Positions 2,799 through 17,167 of a DNA stretch of 32,268 nt are shown piece by piece. Each line of letters starts with the position of its first letter. The first letter of the stretch is position 1. Under the pieces are notes generated by a model. That model worked only from the letters and a program-made list of their open reading frames with translations. It ran no database searches and had not been told where the DNA came from. The position numbers and the translations under genes were made by a program. This stretch comes from Staphylococcus epidermidis (GTDB lineage: Bacteria > Bacillota_I > Bacilli_A > RFN20 > CAG-826). The stretch lies in the NCBI GenBank assembly GCA_945870555.1, contig CAMBSI010000007.1, forward strand, positions 1 through 32,268. The letters are read 5' to 3'.

Positions 2799-4175
2799 AT
2801 GAAAACCATTTATCCAACGTTGCTGATGTTCCTCTTCGTCGTCAGTTGCACACCATCGGAATCGAGTTCCGAGCTTAGTTCATCATCGTTAACGAGTAGT
2901 GAACAAACCTTACTTGCAGCAAGAGAAGCTCTTTACACTGAACAAGAAAAATCATTTAACTTTTTTTGGGAAACCACCACGACCGCAAATGTTGCGGGTT
3001 TTGGCTTAAGTCGTGATCGTTGGCCGGGTAACCCAACGATTGCCTCCATCGCGTCGGTGGGGTTTGCCTTGGCTTCGATTCCAAGTGGTGTTCATCAAGG
3101 CTTTATTAGCCGAGCAGAAGGTGAAGCGCGTGTCCTTGGTACCTTAAATTCATTAATGAATATGACCAGGGTTGAAGGTTTTTATTATCACTGGGTGAAT
3201 ATGACCACTGGTGCAAGAGAATGGAATAGCGAAGTATCGATTATTGATACGGGCTTGATGTTAGCAGGAGCGATTGTCGCCGCCGAATACTTCGGTGGGG
3301 AGATTGCAACCCTAGTTGAAGAAATCTATTTAGATGTGAATTGGGATTGGTATACAAAAGTTACCTCGAGTACGAATAAAGAATTTTATATGAGTTATCG
3401 TCCTAACGAAGGTCATCGTGGCGCATGGGATCACTTTGCGGAACAAATGATTTTATATGTGTTGGCAGCAGGTCATCCAGATTTTTCTCATGGTGATGAT
3501 CTTTATAAAACACTCGTCAGTCGCTCATTTAACAACAACTATATTCGCGGTTATACCTCAACCAAAACACAAGAAGTGGTTGCACCGTTTATTTATAGTT
3601 ATGATGGCTCATTATTTCAACATCAATTTTCTCATGCGTTTATCGACTTTCGCAGTATCCAAGACGAAGCGGAAATCAATTGGTTCGAAAATGCAAGACG
3701 TGCAACCAGGGCAAATTATTTATACACACAAGATTTTTCTCATCGGTATTTAACGTATCATGAAACCTCATGGGGTCTTTCTGCTGGAGATGGACCAAAT
3801 GAATATCGCGCATACGGTGCCCAACCTGCAAAAGCGAATGCGCATAATGGCACGATTGTTCCCTACGCTGCAGTGGCATCCATTAATTACCTTGAAGAAG
3901 AAAGTTTGTTGGCCACCCTTAACTACGCCTCGATAACCCAATTACAAACTACTTATGGTTTTGCGGATGCTTATAACTTAGGACCAGTTGATGATGCGTA
4001 TAATCAAACAATTGCGAATTTAACCCCATGGTACGATCTGCATGTGTTAGGGATTGATAAGGGCATTTCGTTGTTAATGATTGAAAATTATCGAAGTGAA
4101 TTAATTTGGGACATGTTTATGGCGAATGATTTTGTTCAAACCGGTTTAGACGTACTCGGATTCCAAACCGTCTAA
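2799..4175 (+). CDS. Lipoprotein GH144-like (PF10091 'glucoamylase'-type) endo-beta-1,2-glucanase, predicted extracellular
   Basis: ATG at 2799 gives lipobox MKTIYPTLLMFLFVVSC followed by a Ser-rich linker. Motifs 'NFFWETTT', 'SIASVGFALASI', 'WDHFAEQMILYVLAAG', 'FQHQFSHAFIDFR', 'GLSAGDGPNEYRAYGAQP', 'LGIDKGISLLMIENYRS'. Confidence 0.75.
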   Translation: MKTIYPTLLMFLFVVSCTPSESSSELSSSSLTSSEQTLLAAREALYTEQEKSFNFFWETTTTANVAGFGLSRDRWPGNPTIASIASVGFALASIPSGVHQGFISRAEGEARVLGTLNSLMNMTRVEGFYYHWVNMTTGAREWNSEVSIIDTGLMLAGAIVAAEYFGGEIATLVEEIYLDVNWDWYTKVTSSTNKEFYMSYRPNEGHRGAWDHFAEQMILYVLAAGHPDFSHGDDLYKTLVSRSFNNNYIRGYTSTKTQEVVAPFIYSYDGSLFQHQFSHAFIDFRSIQDEAEINWFENARRATRANYLYTQDFSHRYLTYHETSWGLSAGDGPNEYRAYGAQPAKANAHNGTIVPYAAVASINYLEEESLLATLNYASITQLQTTYGFADAYNLGPVDDAYNQTIANLTPWYDLHVLGIDKGISLLMIENYRSELIWDMFMANDFVQTGLDVLGFQTV

Positions 4176-4181
4176 TTCCTA

Positions 4182-4210
4182 TTGACGATGTAACCGCTTT
4201 CACCTATAAT
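4182..4210 (+). promoter_or_regulatory. Sigma-A-type promoter TTGACG-N17-TATAAT
   Basis: TTGACG 4182-4187, 17-nt spacer, TATAAT 4205-4210, upstream of the CBM lipoprotein gene. Confidence 0.8.
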
Positions 4211-4218
4211 TAATTTAT

Positions 4219-4230
4219 CGAAACGTTTCA
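4219..4230. promoter_or_regulatory. LacI-family-type operator palindrome cGAAACGTTTCa
   Basis: Perfect GAAAC|GTTTC palindrome at about +2 to +13 of the promoter; a LacI-family regulator is encoded at 9313. Confidence 0.6.
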
Positions 4231-4367
4231 ATTGACGAATAACCATCAATTAGTATTGTTGCCATCGATGATTATTCAAAATCAATTGAACCAAACTGAT
4301 TAACCTTCTTGAGGAGGTTGGTTAATGAGCAATCTAGCCGTTATTCATTAAGAAAAGGAGAATTTAA

Positions 4368-6407
4368 ATGAATAAGAAACACTTACTTGTCTTGTCTTCA
4401 TTGACTGCGTTGTTTCTCGTTGCATGTGGTGAAGCGTCCTCATCATCACTGACCCCAAGTTCCTCTTCCTCGTCAACTACATCCTCAAGTTCCTCCGTTT
4501 CCTCATCTACCTCGATTGATTCGGACGAAACATGGGGCATCATCAACGGTGACTTCGAAGATGCGTCTGATGACTTCGCTTTCCAATCCGCTGGTTGGAA
4601 TACCTTCATTGGTGGAGAAGTCGATGGTATCGTTGCCTCCGCTTCCTATGAAACCGAAGGCGAAAATCAATATGGTGCAATTAATATTGAATCTGTGACG
4701 GAAGCTACCCAATGGTGGCACGCCCAAATTAGACAAAACGGTGTTTATGTATATGCTTCCGGATCGTATGTTCTAAGTTTTAAAGTCCGCGCTTCCGCAG
4801 CCCGTACGATTCGCGTTCAATTACAAGGTGGCGGTCTTACCTCTAAACCAACCAGTCTAAATGAAGCCGCCATTGCAGTTGGCACAAGTTGGGAAACCAA
4901 GACGATTAATTTCACAGCTCCTTCTGACGCGGTCAATGCTGAATTACAATTTGGTATCGGGCCGGATTCATTCTTGCCAAGTGATTTAGTTGGTTTTGCA
5001 AGAAGCTTTGCTGAAGTTCATTTAGATGATGTCAAAATTGAAATTGGCGAACCTTTACCAAACCAAGCTCCTACCATTAGTGGTGGCGATGTGGTTGGTC
5101 AAGCTGGCGAACTCTTATTAGTGAAGTCTGGCTTAACCGTACGTGATGATTATGATACAAACTTAGCTTTAGCAGATGTCACGGCAATTGATGTTACCAA
5201 TGGTACCAAATTAAATGCTGCTTCTCCTGCTGCTGGTTTCTATACCTTTATGTATGTGCTCACCGACTCAGAAGGTCTTGTCGGCACTCACACACGTAAC
5301 ATCATCATTACCAATCCAGATCAATTATTGAATAACACTCAATTTACCCAATGGGGAACATCTGGCATGCCAGCCGGTTGGACCAAATGGAACGAAGACA
5401 ACAACGGTGGCCAACGTGTTACCGCTGGCGTCATGCCTCATTTACTTCCAGAATCATTATTAGGTAATGTCGTTAATGGTGACTTCTCCGATGGCACTGA
5501 AAATTTCTTGACTTCCGCAGGATGGAAAACGTTTATCGCCGATGAAGAAATCGATGGCATTGCTGCAACCATGGGCATCACCGATGGTGTCGGTGTGTTT
5601 ACCACAACCGCATCAACGTCTGCAACCCATTTCTGGCATGGTCAAATTCGCCAAGAAAATATTCGCTTACCACAAGGTGATTTCACATTAGAATTCCGCG
5701 CGAAGACTTCAGAAGCAAGAACGATTCGTGTTGCCTTAGCTGGGGGCGGTATCGTCGCAACTGGTCGCGCGATTGACGAAGTTCCAGTCGTCTTAACCAC
5801 GGAATGGGACACGTATGAAATCGAATTCACCGCTCAAAACCATTCCTATGGTGCATTACTCCAATTCTTTACTGGTCCAGATCAATTCTTACCAGCGGAA
5901 TTAGCGGCACTTTATGCTTCTGAAACCGGAACCGTTTACTTAGATGATGTGGTGATCCGTTATGAAGATGCCCAATCTCCTGTTGCAACGATGGTTCCAA
6001 CCCTTGCGGTAGATTTATGGAGAATTGTTGACAGTGGCAATCCATGGGAAAACCAAATCAAGTATGAAAAGTTACCATTCTACGAAGGTGACTATACGTT
6101 AAACTTCAAAGCTTATGCAGATGAAGCACGTCCAATCATCCTCGCGATGGAAGGCAATGGTGGCGTTGCTCAACCGAATTTATATCGTACGGTTGAATTA
6201 ACCACAACCCCACAAGCGTTTAGTTATGACATTGAATTTATTGCTGACTCGGTGAATACCTCGAAGAATATGCAATTCTTTATGGGTTCCTTTAGCAACT
6301 TTGCAGAATTTGGTTCATGGTGGTCAGGTTTAGATCCAGTTGGTGTCGAAGATAATATCGAAACCATGGTCTATCTCTTTGATTTTAGCTTAGACAAAGT
6401 CGCCTAA
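4368..6407 (+). CDS. Lipoprotein with tandem/nested CBM4_9-like beta-sandwich modules and an Ig-like domain; probable surface glycan-binding protein
   Basis: Lipobox 'LTALFLVAC', Ser-rich linker, and three related modules with 'NGDF...W..QIRQ...F..(K)A(S/R)..AR.I...L.GGG' signatures. No recognisable catalytic domain. Confidence 0.7.
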   Translation: MNKKHLLVLSSLTALFLVACGEASSSSLTPSSSSSSTTSSSSSVSSSTSIDSDETWGIINGDFEDASDDFAFQSAGWNTFIGGEVDGIVASASYETEGENQYGAINIESVTEATQWWHAQIRQNGVYVYASGSYVLSFKVRASAARTIRVQLQGGGLTSKPTSLNEAAIAVGTSWETKTINFTAPSDAVNAELQFGIGPDSFLPSDLVGFARSFAEVHLDDVKIEIGEPLPNQAPTISGGDVVGQAGELLLVKSGLTVRDDYDTNLALADVTAIDVTNGTKLNAASPAAGFYTFMYVLTDSEGLVGTHTRNIIITNPDQLLNNTQFTQWGTSGMPAGWTKWNEDNNGGQRVTAGVMPHLLPESLLGNVVNGDFSDGTENFLTSAGWKTFIADEEIDGIAATMGITDGVGVFTTTASTSATHFWHGQIRQENIRLPQGDFTLEFRAKTSEARTIRVALAGGGIVATGRAIDEVPVVLTTEWDTYEIEFTAQNHSYGALLQFFTGPDQFLPAELAALYASETGTVYLDDVVIRYEDAQSPVATMVPTLAVDLWRIVDSGNPWENQIKYEKLPFYEGDYTLNFKAYADEARPIILAMEGNGGVAQPNLYRTVELTTTPQAFSYDIEFIADSVNTSKNMQFFMGSFSNFAEFGSWWSGLDPVGVEDNIETMVYLFDFSLDKVA

Positions 6408-6429
6408 TTCGGAGAAAACGAGTATATTA

Positions 6430-6461
6430 GGGATATGGTGGGAACACCATATCCCTTTTTT
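6430..6461 (+). terminator. Rho-independent terminator, possibly partial/intra-operonic
   Basis: GGGATATGGTG-GGAA-CACCATATCCC-TTTTTT: perfect 11-bp stem, 4-nt loop, U-tract. Confidence 0.92.
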
Positions 6462-6486: not shown

Positions 6487-7719
6487 GTGAAACATAACCA
6501 TTCCTTGATTCAAGCAATTGAACAAACAGGTGTTAAATTTTTTCAAGATTTCACCAAGTTTAAGGGTGAAAAAGCCGATGGGCTGACCGTCGATCATACC
6601 GGTGATCTCAACTTAAGTTCAATCGCATCAACCGGATATTTCTTATCGAGTTTAGTCATCGGCGTTTCCCAAGGTTATCTGAAACGTGACCTTGCCATCA
6701 AACAAGCCATCACAACCTTAACCACCTTGCGTGACCATGTTCCTCATTACCATGGTTTCTTTAGTCATTTTGTCAACATTCATACCGGAGAACGACACAA
6801 AAAATCGGAGTATTCAACGATTGATAGTGCCTTGGCGTTTAATGGTATTCTCACGGTCGACCAATACTTTAAGGATCCAGCGATTCATCAACTTTCAGAA
6901 TCGATTTTAGGAAGGGTGAATTGGGATATTTTAATTCACCAACGTCAAGGGAAAACCCATTTTTACATGGCGTATAACCCGGATGCAGATGGTGATTATG
7001 TCAATGGAAAACCTGGTTATATTCATCATTGGAGTATGTTTGCAGAACAAATCATGATGTATGTCATGTATGCTGCAGTCGCAAAAGATCAAACCCTTGC
7101 ATTAAAACTATATGAAGATTTTGAACGTAAGTTAGTGACGTACAAGCAAGCAAGTTATTATTACACCCCAGGAAATACCTTATTTGTTTATCAATATCCA
7201 CAATGCTGGTTAGATTTAAAAAACATGAAGGATCGTCAAGGTATCAATTGGTTTGAGAACACACGTCAAGCGATTTATGGACATTATCAGTTAAGTCGCG
7301 ACATGGTGAAAACGTATCCTACTTTTGGAAATCATTATTTTGGATTTACCGCATCTTATGGCAGAAAAGGGTATCAAGTTTCAAGTGCATTACCCAATGT
7401 GATGAACAAACTTGACCATGATGGTAGCGTTGCCACGAATGCAATGATTGGTTCGCTTTACCACGCTCCTGAGATTGCCTTACCTGCGGTAGAACAATTA
7501 AAAAAAGATCAACGTTTATGGGATGAACGATATGGCTTTATCAACGCCTTTAACGATGATAAACCAGTTTGGTTATCGTCAAGATGGTTAGGGATCGATA
7601 AAGGTTTAGAACTATTAATGGCGAATGCTTATCTTCATCACGATGTGATGGACGCTTACATGCATCACCCACTCATTCAAAAAGGGATGAAAGTTCTCCA
7701 ATGGAAAAAAAACATATAA
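6487..7719 (+). CDS. GH144-like enzyme without signal peptide (predicted cytoplasmic)
   Basis: GTG start. Paralogous to 2799-4175: 'SIASTGYFLSSLVIGV', 'FAEQIMMYVMYAA', 'QYPQCWLDLKNMKDRQGINWFENTRQA', 'LGIDKGLELLMANAY'. Confidence 0.75.
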   Translation: MKHNHSLIQAIEQTGVKFFQDFTKFKGEKADGLTVDHTGDLNLSSIASTGYFLSSLVIGVSQGYLKRDLAIKQAITTLTTLRDHVPHYHGFFSHFVNIHTGERHKKSEYSTIDSALAFNGILTVDQYFKDPAIHQLSESILGRVNWDILIHQRQGKTHFYMAYNPDADGDYVNGKPGYIHHWSMFAEQIMMYVMYAAVAKDQTLALKLYEDFERKLVTYKQASYYYTPGNTLFVYQYPQCWLDLKNMKDRQGINWFENTRQAIYGHYQLSRDMVKTYPTFGNHYFGFTASYGRKGYQVSSALPNVMNKLDHDGSVATNAMIGSLYHAPEIALPAVEQLKKDQRLWDERYGFINAFNDDKPVWLSSRWLGIDKGLELLMANAYLHHDVMDAYMHHPLIQKGMKVLQWKKNI

Positions 7720-9326
7720 CCTGGTGGCAACGTGCCAGCGTTTATCAAATTTATCCTTTAAGTTTTCAAGACAGTAATGGTGATGGCATTGGAGACATCC
7801 AAGGCATCATCTCTCGGCTTGACCATATTAAAGGTCTTGGTATTGACGTGATTTGGTTATCACCAGTGTTTCAATCTCCAATGAAAGACAATGGCTACGA
7901 TGTCAGTGATTATCGTGCCGTTCATCCCTGGTTTGGTACCAAAGCAGATCTTCAACAATTGGTGGATGCGGTTCACAAAAAAGGAATGAAAATCATTTCC
8001 GATATCGTCCTCAACCATACCTCTGACCAACATCCTTGGTTTATCGATGCGTTAAAAAATCCAAATAGTCCATGTCGCGATTATTATATTTTCCGGCCTT
8101 CCATCAATGATATTCAATCGGTTTTTTCAGGACCTGCATGGACAAAAGTCCCGACCAGAGATGAATACTATTTTCATTTCTTTGCGAAAGAACAACCCGA
8201 TTTGAATTGGCAAAATCCAACCTTAAGAAAAGAACTTTACAAGATTTTAAAAGAATGGTTAAGCTTTGGATTTGATGGCTTTCGTTTGGATGTCATTGAT
8301 TTAATCGGTAAAGATATTGATCGTAAGCAAATTGGTCATGGACCTTTTTATCATGCATTTTTAAAGGAATTAAAAGATGAAGTGCTCCATGATACGAACC
8401 TGTTTACAGTTGGGGAGTTATCCGGATCAAGTGCAGAACAAGCTGCGGCGGTGACGGGATATCCCAATGGCACCTTTTCCATGGCGTTTCAATTTTCACA
8501 TTTATGGCTTGATGAACAACCCCACAAAGGCAAATGGGCGCTTAAAAAACTCGACTTAAAAGATTTAAGAAATACCTTTCAATATCTTGATTCGGTTTAT
8601 CGCAAGCAAGGTTGGAATGCCTTGTTCATGGGCAATCATGATCAACCTCGCCCGGTCAGTCGGTATGGTTCTGAACGCCATCGATATCATAGCCAAACGA
8701 TGTTGACCCTAGCGTTTTATGGTCAACGTGGAACCCCTTTTATTTATCAAGGTGAAGAAATTGGCATGCTCAATTATCCATTTAAACGGATTGAATCCTT
8801 TAAAGATGTTGAATCCATCAATTATTATCATGATCAACTTGGCAAACAATCCAAAGCACAAGTGCTGAAGTCCTTACAAGCAAAAGGCCGAGACAATGCG
8901 AGGACGCCGATGCAATGGGATCAAACGCAACATGCTGGTTTTTCAAAAGTAAAGCCTTGGTTACCGGTTCATCCAACCTATCAATCGAACAATGTCATGT
9001 CTGATCAACTCGCTCAACATAGCATTCAGCGTTTCCTAAAAACCTTTCTTGCGCTACGAAAAAAACATGATGTCTTTATTGATGGAACCTTATCCTTTCG
9101 CGATCTTCATCAAGACGTTTATGCTTACGAACGAACCTCGCCAGATGCATCCATCCTCATCTTGACCTCCTTTGCAAATCACAAGTTAAAGATAACCTTA
9201 CCGGATGCTAATCATTGGCAACTCTTACTTAGCAATCATCCAACCCTTTCCCTCCAAGAAAAGATAACTTTACCCCCATTTTTTGCTGGGTTATACTTGA
9301 GAAAGAAAAACGATGGCAACGATTAA
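7701..9326 (+). CDS. GH13 alpha-glucosidase, oligo-1,6-glucosidase/trehalose-6-P hydrolase-like
   Basis: 'DSNGDGIGDIQGI', 'DIVLNHTSDQHPWF', 'GFDGFRLDVIDLIGK', 'FTVGELSG', 'MGNHDQPRPVSRYGS'. Confidence 0.9.
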   Translation: MEKKHITWWQRASVYQIYPLSFQDSNGDGIGDIQGIISRLDHIKGLGIDVIWLSPVFQSPMKDNGYDVSDYRAVHPWFGTKADLQQLVDAVHKKGMKIISDIVLNHTSDQHPWFIDALKNPNSPCRDYYIFRPSINDIQSVFSGPAWTKVPTRDEYYFHFFAKEQPDLNWQNPTLRKELYKILKEWLSFGFDGFRLDVIDLIGKDIDRKQIGHGPFYHAFLKELKDEVLHDTNLFTVGELSGSSAEQAAAVTGYPNGTFSMAFQFSHLWLDEQPHKGKWALKKLDLKDLRNTFQYLDSVYRKQGWNALFMGNHDQPRPVSRYGSERHRYHSQTMLTLAFYGQRGTPFIYQGEEIGMLNYPFKRIESFKDVESINYYHDQLGKQSKAQVLKSLQAKGRDNARTPMQWDQTQHAGFSKVKPWLPVHPTYQSNNVMSDQLAQHSIQRFLKTFLALRKKHDVFIDGTLSFRDLHQDVYAYERTSPDASILILTSFANHKLKITLPDANHWQLLLSNHPTLSLQEKITLPPFFAGLYLRKKNDGND

Positions 9327-10275
9327 AGATGTCGCAAAAAAAGCAGGGGTTTCGGTTTCAACCGCAAGTTACGCGTTGAACAATGTTCCCAATGTCCATC
9401 CTGACACGCGAAAACGGGTCATGGAAGTTGCCGCTGCGATCAATTATCATCCCAATGCCAGTGCACGAAATTTAAAAACGAAACGAACCAATAACCTCGG
9501 CGTTTTTGTTTACGGTTTTAGTGGTCCCGTCTTTTCAGAAATTCTTGAAGGGGTAAACCATATTGTTCATCAACATGGATTTAACATCTTGGTGAGCTCA
9601 GGGAATTCATCTTCGATTATGCTCCAAGAAAAACAAGTTGATGCAGCGATTATTTTTGATTCTTCCTTCGACCGTGAGGTGATCACCCAATATGCCAAGA
9701 CGGCACCGGTTGTCGTCCTTGACACCTATTTAAAAGGGAAAAATATTTATTCAAGTGTCATCGATAATGACCTATTGGTTCATCAATTGATTCGGCAAAT
9801 GGTCAACAAAGGGTATTCGCGTTTTGTTTATGTTTCTGGCCCAAAGGATGCGTTTAATAACAAAGAACGATACAAAGGCTACTTACAAGCGTTACAAGAA
9901 GCTGGGTTAACGAGTCAGCAATATTTCCATGGAGATTTTACGACCCCCTCTGGCTATCAAGCTGGCCAAGCGATTGCCAACATGAAACCATTACCTGATT
10001 TTGTCTATTGTGCAAATGATGAAATGGCGATTGGGGTGATGAATGCTTTTTCTGAAAAGAACATTAGCATTCCCAAAACGATTGGTGTCGCAGGATTTGA
10101 TGGGTCTTATTTGAAGAACCCATATATTCGCCCATCGCTCACCACAATCACGATTAATCACTATGCGTGGGGTGAAAGTGCTGCCTTGTTTTTGATTCAG
10201 GCCTTGCAAAGTCAATCGACGCTAAAAGGAATCACCAAACCAATTGGTGAGATCATGATTAAGGAGTCAACATGA
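9313..10275 (+). CDS. LacI-family transcriptional regulator
   Basis: N-terminal HTH 'ATIKDVAKKAGVSVSTASYALNNVPNVHPDTRKRVMEVAAAINYHPNASARNLKT' plus a periplasmic-binding-like effector domain. Confidence 0.95.
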   Translation: MATIKDVAKKAGVSVSTASYALNNVPNVHPDTRKRVMEVAAAINYHPNASARNLKTKRTNNLGVFVYGFSGPVFSEILEGVNHIVHQHGFNILVSSGNSSSIMLQEKQVDAAIIFDSSFDREVITQYAKTAPVVVLDTYLKGKNIYSSVIDNDLLVHQLIRQMVNKGYSRFVYVSGPKDAFNNKERYKGYLQALQEAGLTSQQYFHGDFTTPSGYQAGQAIANMKPLPDFVYCANDEMAIGVMNAFSEKNISIPKTIGVAGFDGSYLKNPYIRPSLTTITINHYAWGESAALFLIQALQSQSTLKGITKPIGEIMIKEST

Positions 10276-12365
10276 ACATCAACGCGTTATTATCCACCTT
10301 AACATTAGAAGAAAAGGCTGGCCAACTGGCTCAGTTACCTCCTTTCTTTTTTAAGAAGGAAGCGTTACAAGAAGTTGCAGGACCGGTTCAACGCTTACAG
10401 TTGAATGAGGATGACATCTTTCTTGCTGGGTCAGTTTTAGGAATTGGCAATCCTCAAGAAATGATCGACGTACAAACGAGGTATTTATCAAAAAGTCGGC
10501 ATAAAATTCCCCTTATCTTTATGGCGGATATCATTCATGGCTATAAAACGATTTTCCCCATTCCATTAGCATTGGCTGGTTCGTATTCGAAAGAAAACTT
10601 TTATCAGATGGCAAGGGCCTCGGCAGCCGAAGCAACCTTAAGTGGTATCCATGTCACCTTTTCACCGATGGCAGATATGGTTAAGGATATTCGTTGGGGT
10701 CGCGTGATGGAAGCGTATGGAGAAGATCCGTTTCTTGCTTACCATTATGCGTATGCGATGACCAAGGGTTATCAAGGTGAAAGCATTCGTAAAAAAGATA
10801 GTCTGGCAGCATGCATCAAACACTTTGCTGCCTACGGGGCTGCGCTTGCTGGTCGTGATTATGCCCAGGCGCAAATTTCCTTGCATGATTTTTATCAACA
10901 ATATGATGCGGGTTATCGTGGCGCGGTTGATGCAGGTGTTCGGATGGCAATGACCTCTTTCAACGTCTTTGAAGGTGTTCCTGCAACCATTCACCAAACC
11001 TTAATAAGAAAAATCCTGAGGAAAAAAATGGGATTCAAAGGTGTGACGATATCGGATTATGATTCGATTATTGAAACGGTTGTTCATCGTGTCAGTAAAG
11101 ATAATCAAGATGCCGTCCGTCAAGCCATGTTAGCCACCGTTGATATTGAAATGGCTTCCGCTGCCTATATCAAACACATTCCCGTCTTGGTCAAGAACGG
11201 TTTGATCGATATGGATTTATTAGACCAAGCCGTGTTACGTGTGCTTAAACTCAAAAAGGATTTAGGTTTATTTACCAATCCTTTCAAAGGTGCAAACGTC
11301 AAATTAGAACAAACATTTCCCCTATCGACTGAACAACGAAACCTTGCAAAACGTCTTGCGGATGAATCGATTGTGTTATTGAAGAATAAAAACAATCTTT
11401 TACCACTACAATCTCAAAAGGTCGCCTTACTCGGTAAAATGTCAAACTCAGGCGAACTCCTCGGTCCTTGGTCGTGGCATGGTAATCGCCAAAACACGGC
11501 AACCGTTTTCCAACAATTAAAACCATTTGTTCATCATGGTAAAGAACTCATCGAATCGTGGGATGAATCCACCTTGGCAAAAGTGAAATCAGCAGATGTT
11601 TTGGTTGTGATGACCGGGGAAGAAGAAAAAGAATCTGGCGAAGCGCGATCAAAAGTCAATCCAACCTTGGCGACGGATACGATTCAGTTTATCAAGACAC
11701 TGAAACGTTTTCAAAAACCAATCGTGCTCATCATCACCGCAGGACGACCATTGATTCTTACGTCAATCATTGATGATGTCGATAGTATCCTTTACACGTA
11801 TTTTTTAGGAACCGAAGCAGCGAATAGTATCGTCGATACCTTATACGGCAGAAACAATCCTTCTGCAAAGTTAACGATGAGTTTCCCTCGGCACTTAGGG
11901 CAAATCCCAATGAGTTATAATCACCTCAATACTGGACGTCCTTTCTTAGGTCAATCCTTTACGTACACCTCGCATTATATTGATGAATCCAATCTTCCAT
12001 TATTCCCCTTTGGTTTTGGATTAAGTTATAGTACGTTTAAGTTAGAACGCGTCAAGGATATATCGAAGGATCAAGATCTTTTGTTTAGCGTTGATGTGAA
12101 AAATGAATCGGATCGAGCCGGATGGATGATTGTTCCCGTTTATTTAATTCAACCCTTTGCGCCAGTAGCATTACCAAACCGTCAATTGGTTGGCATGGGG
12201 AAAATATTCTTGGAATCACGTACTTCGAAAAATCTTACCATCACGATCGATCGATCCTTCTTAACTTACATTGACCGCGATTATCAAAAGCAAGCGCTTC
12301 AAGGCAAGTTCACCTTTCAAGTCGGCGATGATCAACCAAAAGGTACGATCATCAAGGAGATTTAA
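10272..12365 (+). CDS. GH3 beta-glucosidase
   Basis: 'DIIHGYKTIFPIPLALAGS', 'SPMADMVKDIRWGRVMEAYGEDPFL', 'CIKHFAAYGAALAGRDYA', and nucleophile region 'GFKGVTISDYDSI'. Confidence 0.92.
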   Translation: MNINALLSTLTLEEKAGQLAQLPPFFFKKEALQEVAGPVQRLQLNEDDIFLAGSVLGIGNPQEMIDVQTRYLSKSRHKIPLIFMADIIHGYKTIFPIPLALAGSYSKENFYQMARASAAEATLSGIHVTFSPMADMVKDIRWGRVMEAYGEDPFLAYHYAYAMTKGYQGESIRKKDSLAACIKHFAAYGAALAGRDYAQAQISLHDFYQQYDAGYRGAVDAGVRMAMTSFNVFEGVPATIHQTLIRKILRKKMGFKGVTISDYDSIIETVVHRVSKDNQDAVRQAMLATVDIEMASAAYIKHIPVLVKNGLIDMDLLDQAVLRVLKLKKDLGLFTNPFKGANVKLEQTFPLSTEQRNLAKRLADESIVLLKNKNNLLPLQSQKVALLGKMSNSGELLGPWSWHGNRQNTATVFQQLKPFVHHGKELIESWDESTLAKVKSADVLVVMTGEEEKESGEARSKVNPTLATDTIQFIKTLKRFQKPIVLIITAGRPLILTSIIDDVDSILYTYFLGTEAANSIVDTLYGRNNPSAKLTMSFPRHLGQIPMSYNHLNTGRPFLGQSFTYTSHYIDESNLPLFPFGFGLSYSTFKLERVKDISKDQDLLFSVDVKNESDRAGWMIVPVYLIQPFAPVALPNRQLVGMGKIFLESRTSKNLTITIDRSFLTYIDRDYQKQALQGKFTFQVGDDQPKGTIIKEI

Positions 12366-12368
12366 TCG

Positions 12369-15300
12369 ATGGCAACCTTACAGAATCAATGGCAGCTCTA
12401 TCCGATTCAACAAGGAGGAATTACCTTTTCTTTATTGGCATCCGGTGATGTCTTTAAGATCATGGATCAAGAACATCAAGTGAACTTGTTACATGGGAAC
12501 TTACTCGATGGGATGATTGCCAATCTATACCTGAGAGAAAAACTTGCCAAAGGTTATCGGGTGACCAAATTATTAGGAATCGATAGTCCAAGCCAATGGA
12601 CATTAACAAAAGATGGTGCGATTTTCCAAGGTAACATTTGGGACGTTGATTATCAAGTTCATTTGGTTGTCCAAGCGAAAACCTGGTTTTATCAACTCCA
12701 TTTAAAAGGGAAAAATCCTCAAGCCCAATATGATGTCATGTATGGCCAAGATGTCGGGATTGCCCACCCCTTTGGAATTCTTTCAAATGAAGCGTATACC
12801 TCACAATATATCGACCATCAAGTTTTTCAAACACCCACCCATATCACGATTTTATCAAGACAAAACCAAGGTAGTACCCACTACGTTCAAATCGGAAGTG
12901 ATTATCCTACCGTTGCATATGCGACGGATACGATGCAATTTTTTGGACTCGATTATAAACGCACCCATCTTCCGGTGGCCTACCAATTACCCTTACTTCC
13001 TTCTAAGAATTATCAATATGAATTTTCCTATCCTAGTTTGCAAACCAAAACCTTTTCATTAACACAAACGCTCACCACGATTTCCTTTTATGGTTATTCG
13101 CATCGAGAACAAGATCTGTTTGTGAAACAACCGTTTGCCTCACCGGTTTTCCCAAAAACCACCTGGGTTGAAAAATTATCCGGAAACAAATTAAAGTCGC
13201 TATTAAAAACCAAATCGCCAATTATTGGTCAAAAATTAACCCAAGAAACGATCTTGAAACATTACCCACAATTAACCGACTTAGAAATTGAAGGTCAAGA
13301 TCTGCTTTCCGGTTTCTTACCAGATGGCAGTCATCTGGTTACGCAGCAAAAAGAACTACTCGTGGAAAGACCCCATGGAACGATTTTATTAAGTGGAGAT
13401 GTCTTGCATGCGACCGAGGATGTGTTTGCAACCACGGCATACATGATGGGCATCTTTGGTTCACATACAGTTTATGGAAACACCAATTTTCATAAGCTTA
13501 CTGGCGATTTAAGGCATCCTTTGAATGTTCATACCTTATCTGGGACACGCATTTATCTTGAACAAGATGGTGTTTTTAATCTTCTTGGCATGCCTTCGGT
13601 ATTTGTCATGGGTTTTGATCAATTAACATGGATATATGTCCTGCCCCAAGATACGATCACGATTACCCTTGCCGTGAATGGAGAAGATCCCCTTTCAAAA
13701 CTAACGTTTGCGTCAAAAGAAAATCGGTCTTACCGCGTCAAATTATCACAACAACTCCTGATCGATACCAATGAATATAATCAACCGATTCAATATACGT
13801 TTGACGGCCGAATCCTGGAAGTGGATGGGCGTAGTAATGGCATGATTGCCAGTCATTATCCTGGATTAAGATACCGCTTATCAGCCGACCAACCTTTCCA
13901 ACTTGAATTCCCACAACAATTGATTACACCAACCCAACATGATGGTGGTTTGTTATTTTTCTCATTTGGGTTTACGAGTCGCTTTAGTTTTTATACCGAA
14001 GGAACCTTAACGGGAAACTTTTTAAAGAAACCAGAAACCATCTCCTTTGAAGGTGCATATCCTGCCTTGTTGAAAAAACTCGTGCCATTAAAATTAACGC
14101 TCGCATCGAAACAAAAACAACTGGATGGGTTTAATCGCTTGGTTCCTTGGTATGTTCATAATGCCTTGGTCCATTACGCTTCTCCGCATGGATTAGAACA
14201 ATATAACGGTGCAGCGTGGGGAACGCGCGATGTCCTCCAAGGACCTTTTGAATTATTCTTAACCGCCCAACGTTTTGATATCAATAAAGAAATTCTTCTG
14301 AAGGTCTTTGCCCGTCAATTTAAGGATACGAAAGAATTTCCGCAATGGTTTATGTTTGATAACTATCGCCATATTCAAGCACATGAATCTCATGGTGATG
14401 TCTTGGTTTGGCCATTAAAAGCGCTCGCCAGTTATTTGGATGCTACCAATGATATCGCCTTACTTAAACAACCGCTTCCATTTATGGATAAGCAAACTGG
14501 CAAATTTACCGTAGAAAAAGTCAGTGTCGCCGAACACGTGTGGGCGATTATTCAAACGATTCAACATAGTTTTATCAAAGGGACATCGTTACCCGCTTAT
14601 GGCGGTGGCGATTGGGATGATACGTTACAACCTGCCAATCAAACGTTAACCAAACAAATGGTGTCAGGCTGGACGGTTGCCTTACTCTTTGAAGCATTAT
14701 CCATTTTAAATAACTACCCGCTGTTTTCTGATGATCGCCAACAACAATTAAAAGCATTGACCGATCAGCTCAAAAAAGATTTTGATCAATACCTGATTGT
14801 GGATGGGGTTCCTGCTGGCTTTGTGATTTTCTATCCAGATCATCAAGAAGTCTTGTTGCACCCTTCTGACAAAACCACTGGACTTAATTACCGTTTATTG
14901 CCATTCAATCGAGGCATCATCAGTCAAGCCTTTGATCCAAAAGATATTGCCCGTTATCAACAAATCATTCAAACGCATTTACGGCATCCGGATGGTGTAC
15001 GTTTAATGAATACTGCCGTTCGTTATCAAGGTGGAAAAAAGACCTATTTCCAACGCGCAGAAACCGCTGCAAATTTTGGTAGAGAAATCGGCATTCAATA
15101 CGTTCATGCCCATATACGTTACATCGAAGCGATGTGCACGATTGGAAATGCAGAAGAAGCATGGTGGGGATTAAATGTCATTAATCCAATGCATTTAATC
15201 ACGCACGTTCCCAATGCTGAAAAGCGCCAACGAAATGTTTATTTCTCAAGTTCTGATGCAGCATTTTTAGATCGATATGAAGCAAAACAAGACTTTGAAA

Positions 15301-15611
15301 AAGTGAGAAAAGGGCAAATCAAAGTTAAAGCTGGATGGCGACTTTATTCATCTGGACCAGGGATTTACTTACAAACCCTCATCCAACGTTTTCTTGGTGT
15401 TCGCGTTTATCGCGGTCAGTTAATCGTTGACCCTCAAGTTCCACATTCCTTAGCAGGTTTAACGGTTCAATTCCATTTCCAAAATCGCCCATTAACCATG
15501 GTGATTCCTCAAGTGCCTAAACCAAGTTTACCTGGGAATCGTTATCGTTTAAAGATAGCAACCGATGTTAAAATCACTGCCTCCAATGTGGTGGTAACGA
15601 TTCGCGAATGA
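12369..15611 (+). CDS. GH94-like phosphorylase, probable 1,2-beta-oligoglucan phosphorylase (SOGP type)
   Basis: 1080 aa; 'QYNGAAWGTRDVLQGPFELFLTAQRF', 'LPAYGGGDWDDTLQP' (general-acid loop), 'YFSSSDAAFLDRYEA', 'GWRLYSSGPGIYLQTLIQRFLGVR'. Adjacent to GH3, as in the Listeria innocua SOGP operon. Confidence 0.8.
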   Translation: MATLQNQWQLYPIQQGGITFSLLASGDVFKIMDQEHQVNLLHGNLLDGMIANLYLREKLAKGYRVTKLLGIDSPSQWTLTKDGAIFQGNIWDVDYQVHLVVQAKTWFYQLHLKGKNPQAQYDVMYGQDVGIAHPFGILSNEAYTSQYIDHQVFQTPTHITILSRQNQGSTHYVQIGSDYPTVAYATDTMQFFGLDYKRTHLPVAYQLPLLPSKNYQYEFSYPSLQTKTFSLTQTLTTISFYGYSHREQDLFVKQPFASPVFPKTTWVEKLSGNKLKSLLKTKSPIIGQKLTQETILKHYPQLTDLEIEGQDLLSGFLPDGSHLVTQQKELLVERPHGTILLSGDVLHATEDVFATTAYMMGIFGSHTVYGNTNFHKLTGDLRHPLNVHTLSGTRIYLEQDGVFNLLGMPSVFVMGFDQLTWIYVLPQDTITITLAVNGEDPLSKLTFASKENRSYRVKLSQQLLIDTNEYNQPIQYTFDGRILEVDGRSNGMIASHYPGLRYRLSADQPFQLEFPQQLITPTQHDGGLLFFSFGFTSRFSFYTEGTLTGNFLKKPETISFEGAYPALLKKLVPLKLTLASKQKQLDGFNRLVPWYVHNALVHYASPHGLEQYNGAAWGTRDVLQGPFELFLTAQRFDINKEILLKVFARQFKDTKEFPQWFMFDNYRHIQAHESHGDVLVWPLKALASYLDATNDIALLKQPLPFMDKQTGKFTVEKVSVAEHVWAIIQTIQHSFIKGTSLPAYGGGDWDDTLQPANQTLTKQMVSGWTVALLFEALSILNNYPLFSDDRQQQLKALTDQLKKDFDQYLIVDGVPAGFVIFYPDHQEVLLHPSDKTTGLNYRLLPFNRGIISQAFDPKDIARYQQIIQTHLRHPDGVRLMNTAVRYQGGKKTYFQRAETAANFGREIGIQYVHAHIRYIEAMCTIGNAEEAWWGLNVINPMHLITHVPNAEKRQRNVYFSSSDAAFLDRYEAKQDFEKVRKGQIKVKAGWRLYSSGPGIYLQTLIQRFLGVRVYRGQLIVDPQVPHSLAGLTVQFHFQNRPLTMVIPQVPKPSLPGNRYRLKIATDVKITASNVVVTIRE

Positions 15612-17167
15612 ACAAGCAAAGAACGATGAATGCTTTCCCATTCATTATTTTTTCTTTACTCGTGGTGACAAGTTGTGATGGCATCATCCAACCTTCATCT
15701 CAAGTCTTTTCTTCGGAAAATTTAAGTCAGTATGAACGTGAATTGACGCCAACGATTCCTTACTTGTCAGAGAATTACCTTCTTCCCGTACTTGCGGAAA
15801 ATCCTTATCTGATTTCAATCACATGGACTACGCCACATTATGCGGTTGAGGATGGGACACTCATTTATGTTTCTCCGATTGCAGATGAGGTCATTACGCT
15901 TTCTGCAACCTTAACGTATCAACTACTCAGTCATACCCTCACCTATGAATTGCTGGTCAAAAGTCAATTAGATGTACCATCGTTTTCAAAACGCCCAAGA
16001 TTATCGATTCAACTCGGCAGTCAACGTACCGAATCCGACATTTATTATGAAGACTATATTTCGGCAACAGCGACCATCCAGCATGATGCCAACGGACTGT
16101 ATCAAACGACGTCCATCATCTCACCGTTAGGGATTCGTACACGTGGCCATTCAACCCGATTTATGCCGAAGCGTCCATATCGGATTCGCTTTGATCAAAA
16201 CACATCCATTTTTGGTATGAAGCCTGCCAAGAATTATATTTTATTGGCGAATTATATCGATCGCTCGCTTGTTCGCAATAGTTTAGTTGCATACATGAGT
16301 CAATTCTTTGATTCAACCCTTTATCCGCTTGATTATCGATTTGTTGATTTAATCATTAACCAAGAATATCGGGGACAATATTTACTCATTGAGCGTGTAG
16401 AATTCCAAAAGAATCGGCTTGATATCGAACCTAATTTATCCCTTGATGATGCTGGCTTTATGGTTGAACTAGATTTCCAAGTGTACGTTCAAAACCAAGG
16501 CAATGAAAACTTAGAGTGGTTTATGATGAATGACAAACCGTATGTGATCAAGGAACCGAATCCATTAACGACTCAAGGTTATCAATTTCGGCACACGCGT
16601 TATATGAATGATTATTTCCACGCCACAAGAACAGCGCTTATCCAAAAAACCAATGTTGCCGATTATATTGATATCGAAAATTGGATTGATTATTTCATGA
16701 TTCAAGAAATCTCAAAAAATGTTGATGTCGGTTGGGGTTCCGTTTATATGGTCAAGCCCACCGGAGAAAAACTCAAACATATGCCTCTATGGGATTTTGA
16801 CTTAGCGTTTGGTAACGCTGACTATGTGGACTATACCCCTGAAGGTCATTGGGGTTGGGCGACTTATGAAAAAAACGAATTGTTTACCTTGTTGATGGGT
16901 GTGACCGCGATTCGTAACCGATTCAAAGCTAAATTAATTGAATTTGAACGCGACGTTTTACCGCTGATCCTCGCTTGGTTAACTGCGAATGAATCGTCCT
17001 TAATGATCTTAAGTGAAGAGAACTTTAATTTGTGGCCGATGGATACATGTGAAGGTTGGTGTCCGATTCCACTACCATTACAAGGCTTAACATCGATTGC
17101 TCAACAGTTTGATTACCTTCGTGACTTTCTAACACAACGGATCACGTGGATGAAATCTCACATCTAA
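15608..17167 (+). CDS. CotH-kinase-family lipoprotein
   Basis: Lipobox 'IFSLLVVTSC'; 'GIRTRGHSTRFMPKRPYRIRFD', 'YILLANYIDRSLVRNSLVAYMS', 'INQEYRGQYLLIERVE', 'MPLWDFDLAFGN'. ATGA overlap with the GH94 stop. Confidence 0.85.
   Translation: MNKQRTMNAFPFIIFSLLVVTSCDGIIQPSSQVFSSENLSQYERELTPTIPYLSENYLLPVLAENPYLISITWTTPHYAVEDGTLIYVSPIADEVITLSATLTYQLLSHTLTYELLVKSQLDVPSFSKRPRLSIQLGSQRTESDIYYEDYISATATIQHDANGLYQTTSIISPLGIRTRGHSTRFMPKRPYRIRFDQNTSIFGMKPAKNYILLANYIDRSLVRNSLVAYMSQFFDSTLYPLDYRFVDLIINQEYRGQYLLIERVEFQKNRLDIEPNLSLDDAGFMVELDFQVYVQNQGNENLEWFMMNDKPYVIKEPNPLTTQGYQFRHTRYMNDYFHATRTALIQKTNVADYIDIENWIDYFMIQEISKNVDVGWGSVYMVKPTGEKLKHMPLWDFDLAFGNADYVDYTPEGHWGWATYEKNELFTLLMGVTAIRNRFKAKLIEFERDVLPLILAWLTANESSLMILSEENFNLWPMDTCEGWCPIPLPLQGLTSIAQQFDYLRDFLTQRITWMKSHI

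Follow-up and report, generated by a model that had tools for sequence, protein, structure and literature searches.

Domain insertion is in itself a common event, and homologous domains nested in one another are known elsewhere, as in glutathione reductase, where the NAD domain lies inside the FAD domain; thus, the principle of nesting is not new. Insertions are present in about a fifth of multidomain proteins, and 65.8% of insertion events take place between different homology groups (PMC13114784). As regards CBMs, they have been described as guests within catalytic domains: the GH148 enzyme EngU carries a CBM4 inside its catalytic domain, an arrangement suited by the close proximity of the CBM4 termini (PMC5725463), two CBM4s are inserted in the catalytic domain of the GH10 enzyme Xyn10C/Pm25 (PMC7848910), and the catalytic domain of the GH5 enzyme MtGlu5 harbors a CBM29-like insert (PMC9063844). 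In the SGBP-B surface lipoproteins, including CHU_1279, the CBM-like modules are arranged in tandem (PMC12016534). No CBM nested in a paralogous CBM was found in the literature searched, the coverage of which was incomplete.

The stretch of DNA analyzed here (the window, 32,268 nucleotides) encodes on its forward strand a 679-aa lipoprotein with the module order A, Ig, B1-[C]-B2 (4368..6407, identified as an open reading frame with its translation), which differs from these systems in that a CBM here hosts another of its own kind, derived as a copy from a neighboring module. Encoded in a beta-1,2-glucan operon, the protein is anchored in the membrane, lacks a catalytic domain and probably serves to capture glycans; a copy of module A, now module C, was in all likelihood inserted into its module B. 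All segments described in this and the next paragraph are on the forward strand. The signal peptide and lipobox LVAC-G, with Cys20, were read from the sequence (4368..4430) and are followed by a Ser-rich linker, delimited by sequence and homolog comparison (residues 22-55, 4431..4532), which in the nested orthologs occupies the place of an N-terminal Ig-like domain in distant homologs. Module A (residues 56-228, 4533..5051) is a CBM4_9 domain that scored 50.7 bits against Pfam CBM_4_9 (PF02018, curated cut-off 25.9 bits) and matched 1gui, the CBM4 (CBM4-2) of TmLam16A, at 7.6e-05 by phmmer. The Ig-like domain that follows (residues 232-318, 5061..5321) matched Bact_surface_Ig-like at 0.0045, under the cut-off, and matches to Bact_surface_Ig-like and Big_9 are present in homologs of the lipoprotein.

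The first strands of module B, that is, its N-terminal part B1 (residues 319-356, 5322..5435), were delimited by alignment to uncut B domains and lead through the entry linker PHLLPESLLG (5436..5465) into module C, a complete CBM4_9 domain (core residues 367-534, 5466..5969) that, with 39.4 bits, also exceeds the CBM_4_9 cut-off. The exit linker AQSPVATMVPT (residues 535-545, 5970..6002) then leads to B2, the rest of module B (residues 545-679, 6000..6404). A sequence-only reading of this DNA had placed A, B1, C and B2 at these positions and had noted a close alignment of A with C; every segment was recovered where it had been placed, and A and C share 43% identity across 161 aligned residues. 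The Ig-like domain between A and B1 and the specific sister relationship of C to A, discussed below, go beyond that reading. The spliced module B matched no Pfam family at E values up to 10, and its kinship with CBM4 was therefore established from a profile of B homologs, which retrieved 1gui as its best PDB match at 4e-11. All three modules resemble CBM family 4, A and C by Pfam score and B by its family profile. The known CBM4 structures matched are continuous modules, unlike the present protein, where a CBM4-type module is cut open by a second one. A W..Q signature aligning with 'TWHIQ' of 1gui is retained in A (W117/Q120), C (W423/Q426) and B (W560/Q563), so that no module looks degenerate, and glycan binding is predicted. 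The Pfam search revealed no catalytic domain in the lipoprotein, as had been supposed from the letters. The same search found no match to the SBP_bac_1 and SBP_bac_8 profiles; since dedicated substrate-binding proteins (SBPs) exist in relatives, the possibility that the lipoprotein is itself the binding protein of an ABC importer was rejected.

The splitting of module B was assessed through its homologs. A profile of the three nested orthologs was searched in 395 genomes of the class, and several proteins were found to match profile positions 67-367 (A, Ig and B1) and then directly positions ~553-682 (B2), without C. Such uncut B modules are encoded by genes that occupy the equivalent place in the operon of distantly related members of the class, most of these homologs having the same operon context, and the B1-like stretch runs straight into the B2-like stretch in at least six homologs; in genome G406, the A-Ig-B1 match and the B2 match are separated by 6 bases. 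The uncut B of locus L052 reads 'GVPVGWETWYESTRGGLTVTT-VDEVVEVDITNVDSVDGNIWENQFKVQNL', whereas the window reads 'GMPAGWTKWNEDNNGGQRVTAGVM | C | TLAVDLWRIVDSGNPWENQIKYEKL', and the spliced B of the window aligns with those of L052-L055 without a gap at the junction. When scored against a profile built from uncut homologs only, the spliced B reached 124.7 bits, B2 alone 97.5 bits and B1 alone 19.5 bits, while B2 joined to 200 shuffled B1 segments averaged 99.1 bits and never exceeded 106.0 bits; real B1 thus adds 27 bits and shuffled B1 at most 8.5. On these scores, the split of B is beyond chance. Additionally, in a scan of 650 possible cuts, the best five each removed exactly 188 residues, from ~353-357 to 540-544, and in the alignment with 1gui the insertion point corresponds to a short turn between 'ISGARVSD' and 'YAYITI'. 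As is expected of an inserted domain, the host thus occurs uncut in homologs, and taking out the guest yields a continuous host again. An assembly or frameshift artefact was rejected, because the layout is common to three separately assembled genomes.

Support for the nesting of C in B comes from sequence homology, as seen in uncut homologs, splice and cut scores and the module tree, rather than from a structure model. AlphaFold alignments contained three orthologs only, with their A modules added for a second model, and confidence was low because no more than these orthologs were usable (mean pLDDT 44.3 for the full length and 55.9 for B1-C-B2, with B1 below 50). On either side of the insertion, strands were modeled (residues 352-359 and 546-553), but at a confidence too low to count. 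In a fold search with the low-confidence second model, the top match was 7kwb (BtSGBP-B from Bacteroides thetaiotaomicron), and CBM4 structures (1gui, TM 0.80 on the target) as well as tandem-CBM proteins were also returned; these matches carry no information on nesting. From homology to the uncut domains, B1 would be expected to pack on B2 in the fold.

The origin of C was examined in a maximum-likelihood tree of 58 modules, including 26 other CBM4_9 modules. The C modules of the three nested proteins are sister to the A modules of the same three proteins with support of 100/99 and fall within the A clade (96/87); the B modules, without exception, make up a clade of their own (98/91). The best reading is that C arose as a copy of A that was pasted into a hairpin turn of B. 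In the simplest history suggested by the tree, A would have been duplicated and the copy placed within B prior to the divergence of the three orthologs. A recent duplication at the DNA level was rejected, since the repeat search gave only short matches of at most 30 nt, which indicates that the duplication event is old.

Two other readings of this architecture were considered. Three sequential domains, with C and B2 separate and B1 a vestigial remnant or linker that does not join B2, could be proposed because the packing of B1 on B2 comes without a confident structural model and because B2 alone still obtains most of the score; however, B2 lacks the first strands present in uncut homologs, B1 supplies exactly those strands with a gapless junction, the gain from real B1 is beyond the reach of shuffled segments, and B1 is as conserved as B2 (47% versus 41% invariant residues among the three orthologs). 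This arrangement is thus considered very unlikely. Little more probable is a derivation of C from another protein, either another CBM4_9 protein of the genome or a horizontal donor, instead of from A: CBM4_9 modules are common in the class, donors were sampled to a limited extent and C has diverged from A to 43% identity, but the placement of C beside the A of its own three proteins, away from the 26 other CBM4_9 modules, argues against it. The nested reading of the sequence-only analysis, in which a CBM-like sandwich would sit in a loop of a paralogous one and split the third module in two, is therefore the one best sustained by uncut homologs, splice scores, cut scan and tree.

The two other nested orthologs, L031 (65% identity) and L032 (62% identity), have the same layout and operon and come from the same genus and another genus of the same family. 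These three proteins were the only carriers with full-length matches among 279 genomes of the order, and such uncut forms as were found belong to other families of this class. A single-protein query in a first scan of genome contigs found nothing, no relatives of the lipoprotein were found in viral contigs, and there was no match among plasmids. Among the three orthologs, dN ranged from 0.19 to 0.40 and dS exceeded 1 where computable, near or past saturation, which indicates that the nested form is old and has been maintained. The linkers of C are more conserved than the segments that they connect, with 90% invariant residues in the entry linker (9 of 10) and 73% in the exit linker (8 of 11), versus 41-50% in the flanking B1, C and B2. 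This pattern suggests that C would be held in a fixed geometry rather than by a loose tether, through linkers that may be rigid. Homologous lipoproteins have also grown in tandem: L058 (2954-5749) encodes two A-Ig-B units and L059 (4510-7404) four B-type modules.

The enzymes encoded around the lipoprotein gene indicate the likely substrate; the genes described below for the two GH144-like proteins, the LacI regulator, the GH3 and the phosphorylase are on the forward strand. A GH144-like lipoprotein glucanase is found immediately upstream (2799..4175; the open reading frame starts at 2715, with ATG 2799 the likely start) and matched PF10091 at 2.8e-57 and the endo-beta-1,2-glucanase structures 8xul and 5gzh, and a second GH144-like protein, without an evident signal peptide, is found downstream (6487..7719, PF10091 4.4e-43). 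A LacI-family regulator (9313..10275, PF00356 3.3e-19), a candidate operator binder, is followed by a GH3 beta-glucosidase (10272..12365), the best PDB match of which is Lin1840 of the Listeria beta-1,2-glucan cluster, and by a 1,2-beta-oligoglucan phosphorylase (SOGP; 12369..15611, SOGP_N 2.2e-66, PDB 5h3z series 7e-213). A GH13 gene of alpha-glucosidase or phosphotrehalase type (7701-9326) lies amid these genes and is also present in relatives, and a CotH-like kinase gene (15608-17167) is directly 3' of the phosphorylase gene. The order is thus GH144-like lipoprotein, CBM gene, second GH144-like, GH13, LacI, GH3, SOGP and CotH, with ABC permeases and DUF5696 encoded upstream. The operon is broken at the window start (1-925), and contig C31 of the same genome (G000; locus L067) probably holds its upstream part.

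Homologous loci, compared by ORF sizes, N-terminal sequences and, for selected genes, Pfam, show a very similar gene order, and in relatives the upstream region also encodes two additional permeases together with two substrate-binding proteins, so that the lipoprotein is not the sole candidate binder. In L051 (4546-6855) and L052 (4693-7008), a GH35-like gene on the opposite strand separates the CBM gene from the second GH144-like gene, and the GH35 of L051 is closest to beta-1,2-glucosyltransferase structures (7vkx). The co-occurrence of SOGP, a GH144-type glucanase and a GH3 is that expected of a beta-1,2-glucan utilization locus. As in the Listeria innocua cluster, where Lin1839 is an SOGP and Lin1840 a GH3 (PMC3960220, PMC4757417), the phosphorylase adjoins a GH3 beta-glucosidase; in comparison, the present operon contains additionally two GH144-like proteins, GH13 and DUF5696 and, as a further probable difference, the CBM lipoprotein.

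From these enzymes together with the GH35 of a homologous locus, beta-1,2-glucan would be the ligand of the lipoprotein, with modules C and B also predicted to bind glycan. The CBM4 of the closest known structure binds beta-1,3-glucan (PMC6272582) and no beta-1,2-glucan-specific CBM was found described in the literature searched, so that the specificity given here is a prediction. A different ligand, such as beta-1,3-glucan or an alpha-glucan, in an operon that handles a heteropolymer, would agree with the specificity of 1gui and with the alpha-glucosidase-type GH13 in this operon and in relatives, but is rather unlikely given that GH144-like enzymes, SOGP and the Lin1840-like GH3 together indicate beta-1,2-glucan, as does the GH35. 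There is a comparably modest chance that the inserted module serves to space or stabilize the structure and adds no binding site, any binding being due to A and B only. C does evolve faster than A (dN 0.37-0.40 versus 0.19-0.23), but so does B, and C has kept its W..Q signature as well as the complete domain outline that it has in common with A.

The lipoprotein gene also appears to have control elements of its own. A sigma-70-like promoter, TTGACG-17-TATAAT (4182..4210, forward strand), with 11 of 12 consensus matches and at the same place in both orthologs, is proposed on consensus match, which is not proof of use. Just 3' of its -10 element lies the LacI-type palindromic operator ATCGAAACGTTTCAAT (4217..4232, forward strand), the core of which is invariant in the three orthologs. 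The palindrome gave two strand-hits in the window against 0.12 expected and is probably the operator that would be bound by the LacI regulator of the operon. The near-perfect palindrome TATCGAAACGTTTCGATA was observed at 4217-4232 of the window, at 3874-3887 of L067 and in L051-L066. In distant homologs it lies just 5' of the CBM gene or of the neighboring upstream operon gene. Substrate-binding-protein genes are likewise preceded by it, as is the second GH144-like gene in some genomes. In the genome to which the window belongs, the only other perfect palindrome is 23 bases 5' of a 503-aa lipoprotein gene on contig C31, which is followed by a 774-aa open frame; from its position and its counterparts in relatives, it is probably the gene of this operon that encodes a substrate-binding protein, cut off where the contig ends. 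A terminator-like stem-loop with a 12-bp stem and a T run follows the lipoprotein gene (6429..6456, forward strand), with a clear counterpart in L032 and a similar stem in L031. Such separate control may yield the binding lipoprotein in excess over the enzymes, which would fit a role in capture.

It had also been proposed that the protein is a Gram-positive analogue of SusE/F-type glycan-binding lipoproteins. Like SusE-SusF and SGBP-B, it is a non-catalytic, surface-anchored lipoprotein with several CBM-like sandwiches, encoded beside glucan-degrading enzymes, and a similar role is plausible from operon and co-regulation; by architecture, the SGBP-B proteins with CBM-like modules are the closest in role. 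However, the protein does not belong to SusE/F: the operon is of the ABC-importer type, and no SusC/SusD pair was matched among the neighbors scanned, which encode ABC permeases, with binding proteins in relatives. SGBP-B modules are in tandem and belong to SusC/SusD-type outer-membrane systems, whereas the modules here are nested. The Gram-positive label is also doubtful: the penicillin-binding transpeptidase (PF00905) was not found in this genome or in four others of the same genus, in assemblies 63-93% complete, and this genome gave only one Mur_ligase_M match, from which the lineage may be devoid of a peptidoglycan wall.

Taken together, the likeliest role of the lipoprotein is surface capture of glucan. 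The ancestral order would have been A-Ig-B, which is still present in distant homologs at the same operon position, and the common ancestor of the nested three would have gained a copy of A in a turn between two early strands of B, which split B into B1 and B2 without destroying it. The mature protein, with Cys20 as its anchor, would present A, the spacing Ig domain and a compact B[C] unit whose parts are connected by two short, nearly invariant linkers. The modules would keep long or cyclic beta-1,2-glucan on the cell surface while the neighboring GH144-like lipoprotein cuts it, and the resulting oligosaccharides would be imported by the ABC binding proteins and permeases and finished inside the cell by SOGP and GH3. 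More tentatively, and on present evidence still somewhat doubtful, this would be the first described CBM inserted in a paralogous CBM for which the ancestral state, the donor copy and the point of insertion can each be recognized, and B[C], as a rigid unit, would form a composite multi-site clamp shaped for beta-1,2-glucan. The lipoprotein points to candidate beta-1,2-glucan-binding modules, a specificity lacking in the CBM literature searched. Because living relatives still reveal the uncut host, the donor copy and the turn that received it, the locus represents a clean natural experiment, in which nested growth of one receptor can be directly compared with its tandem growth in L058 and L059.
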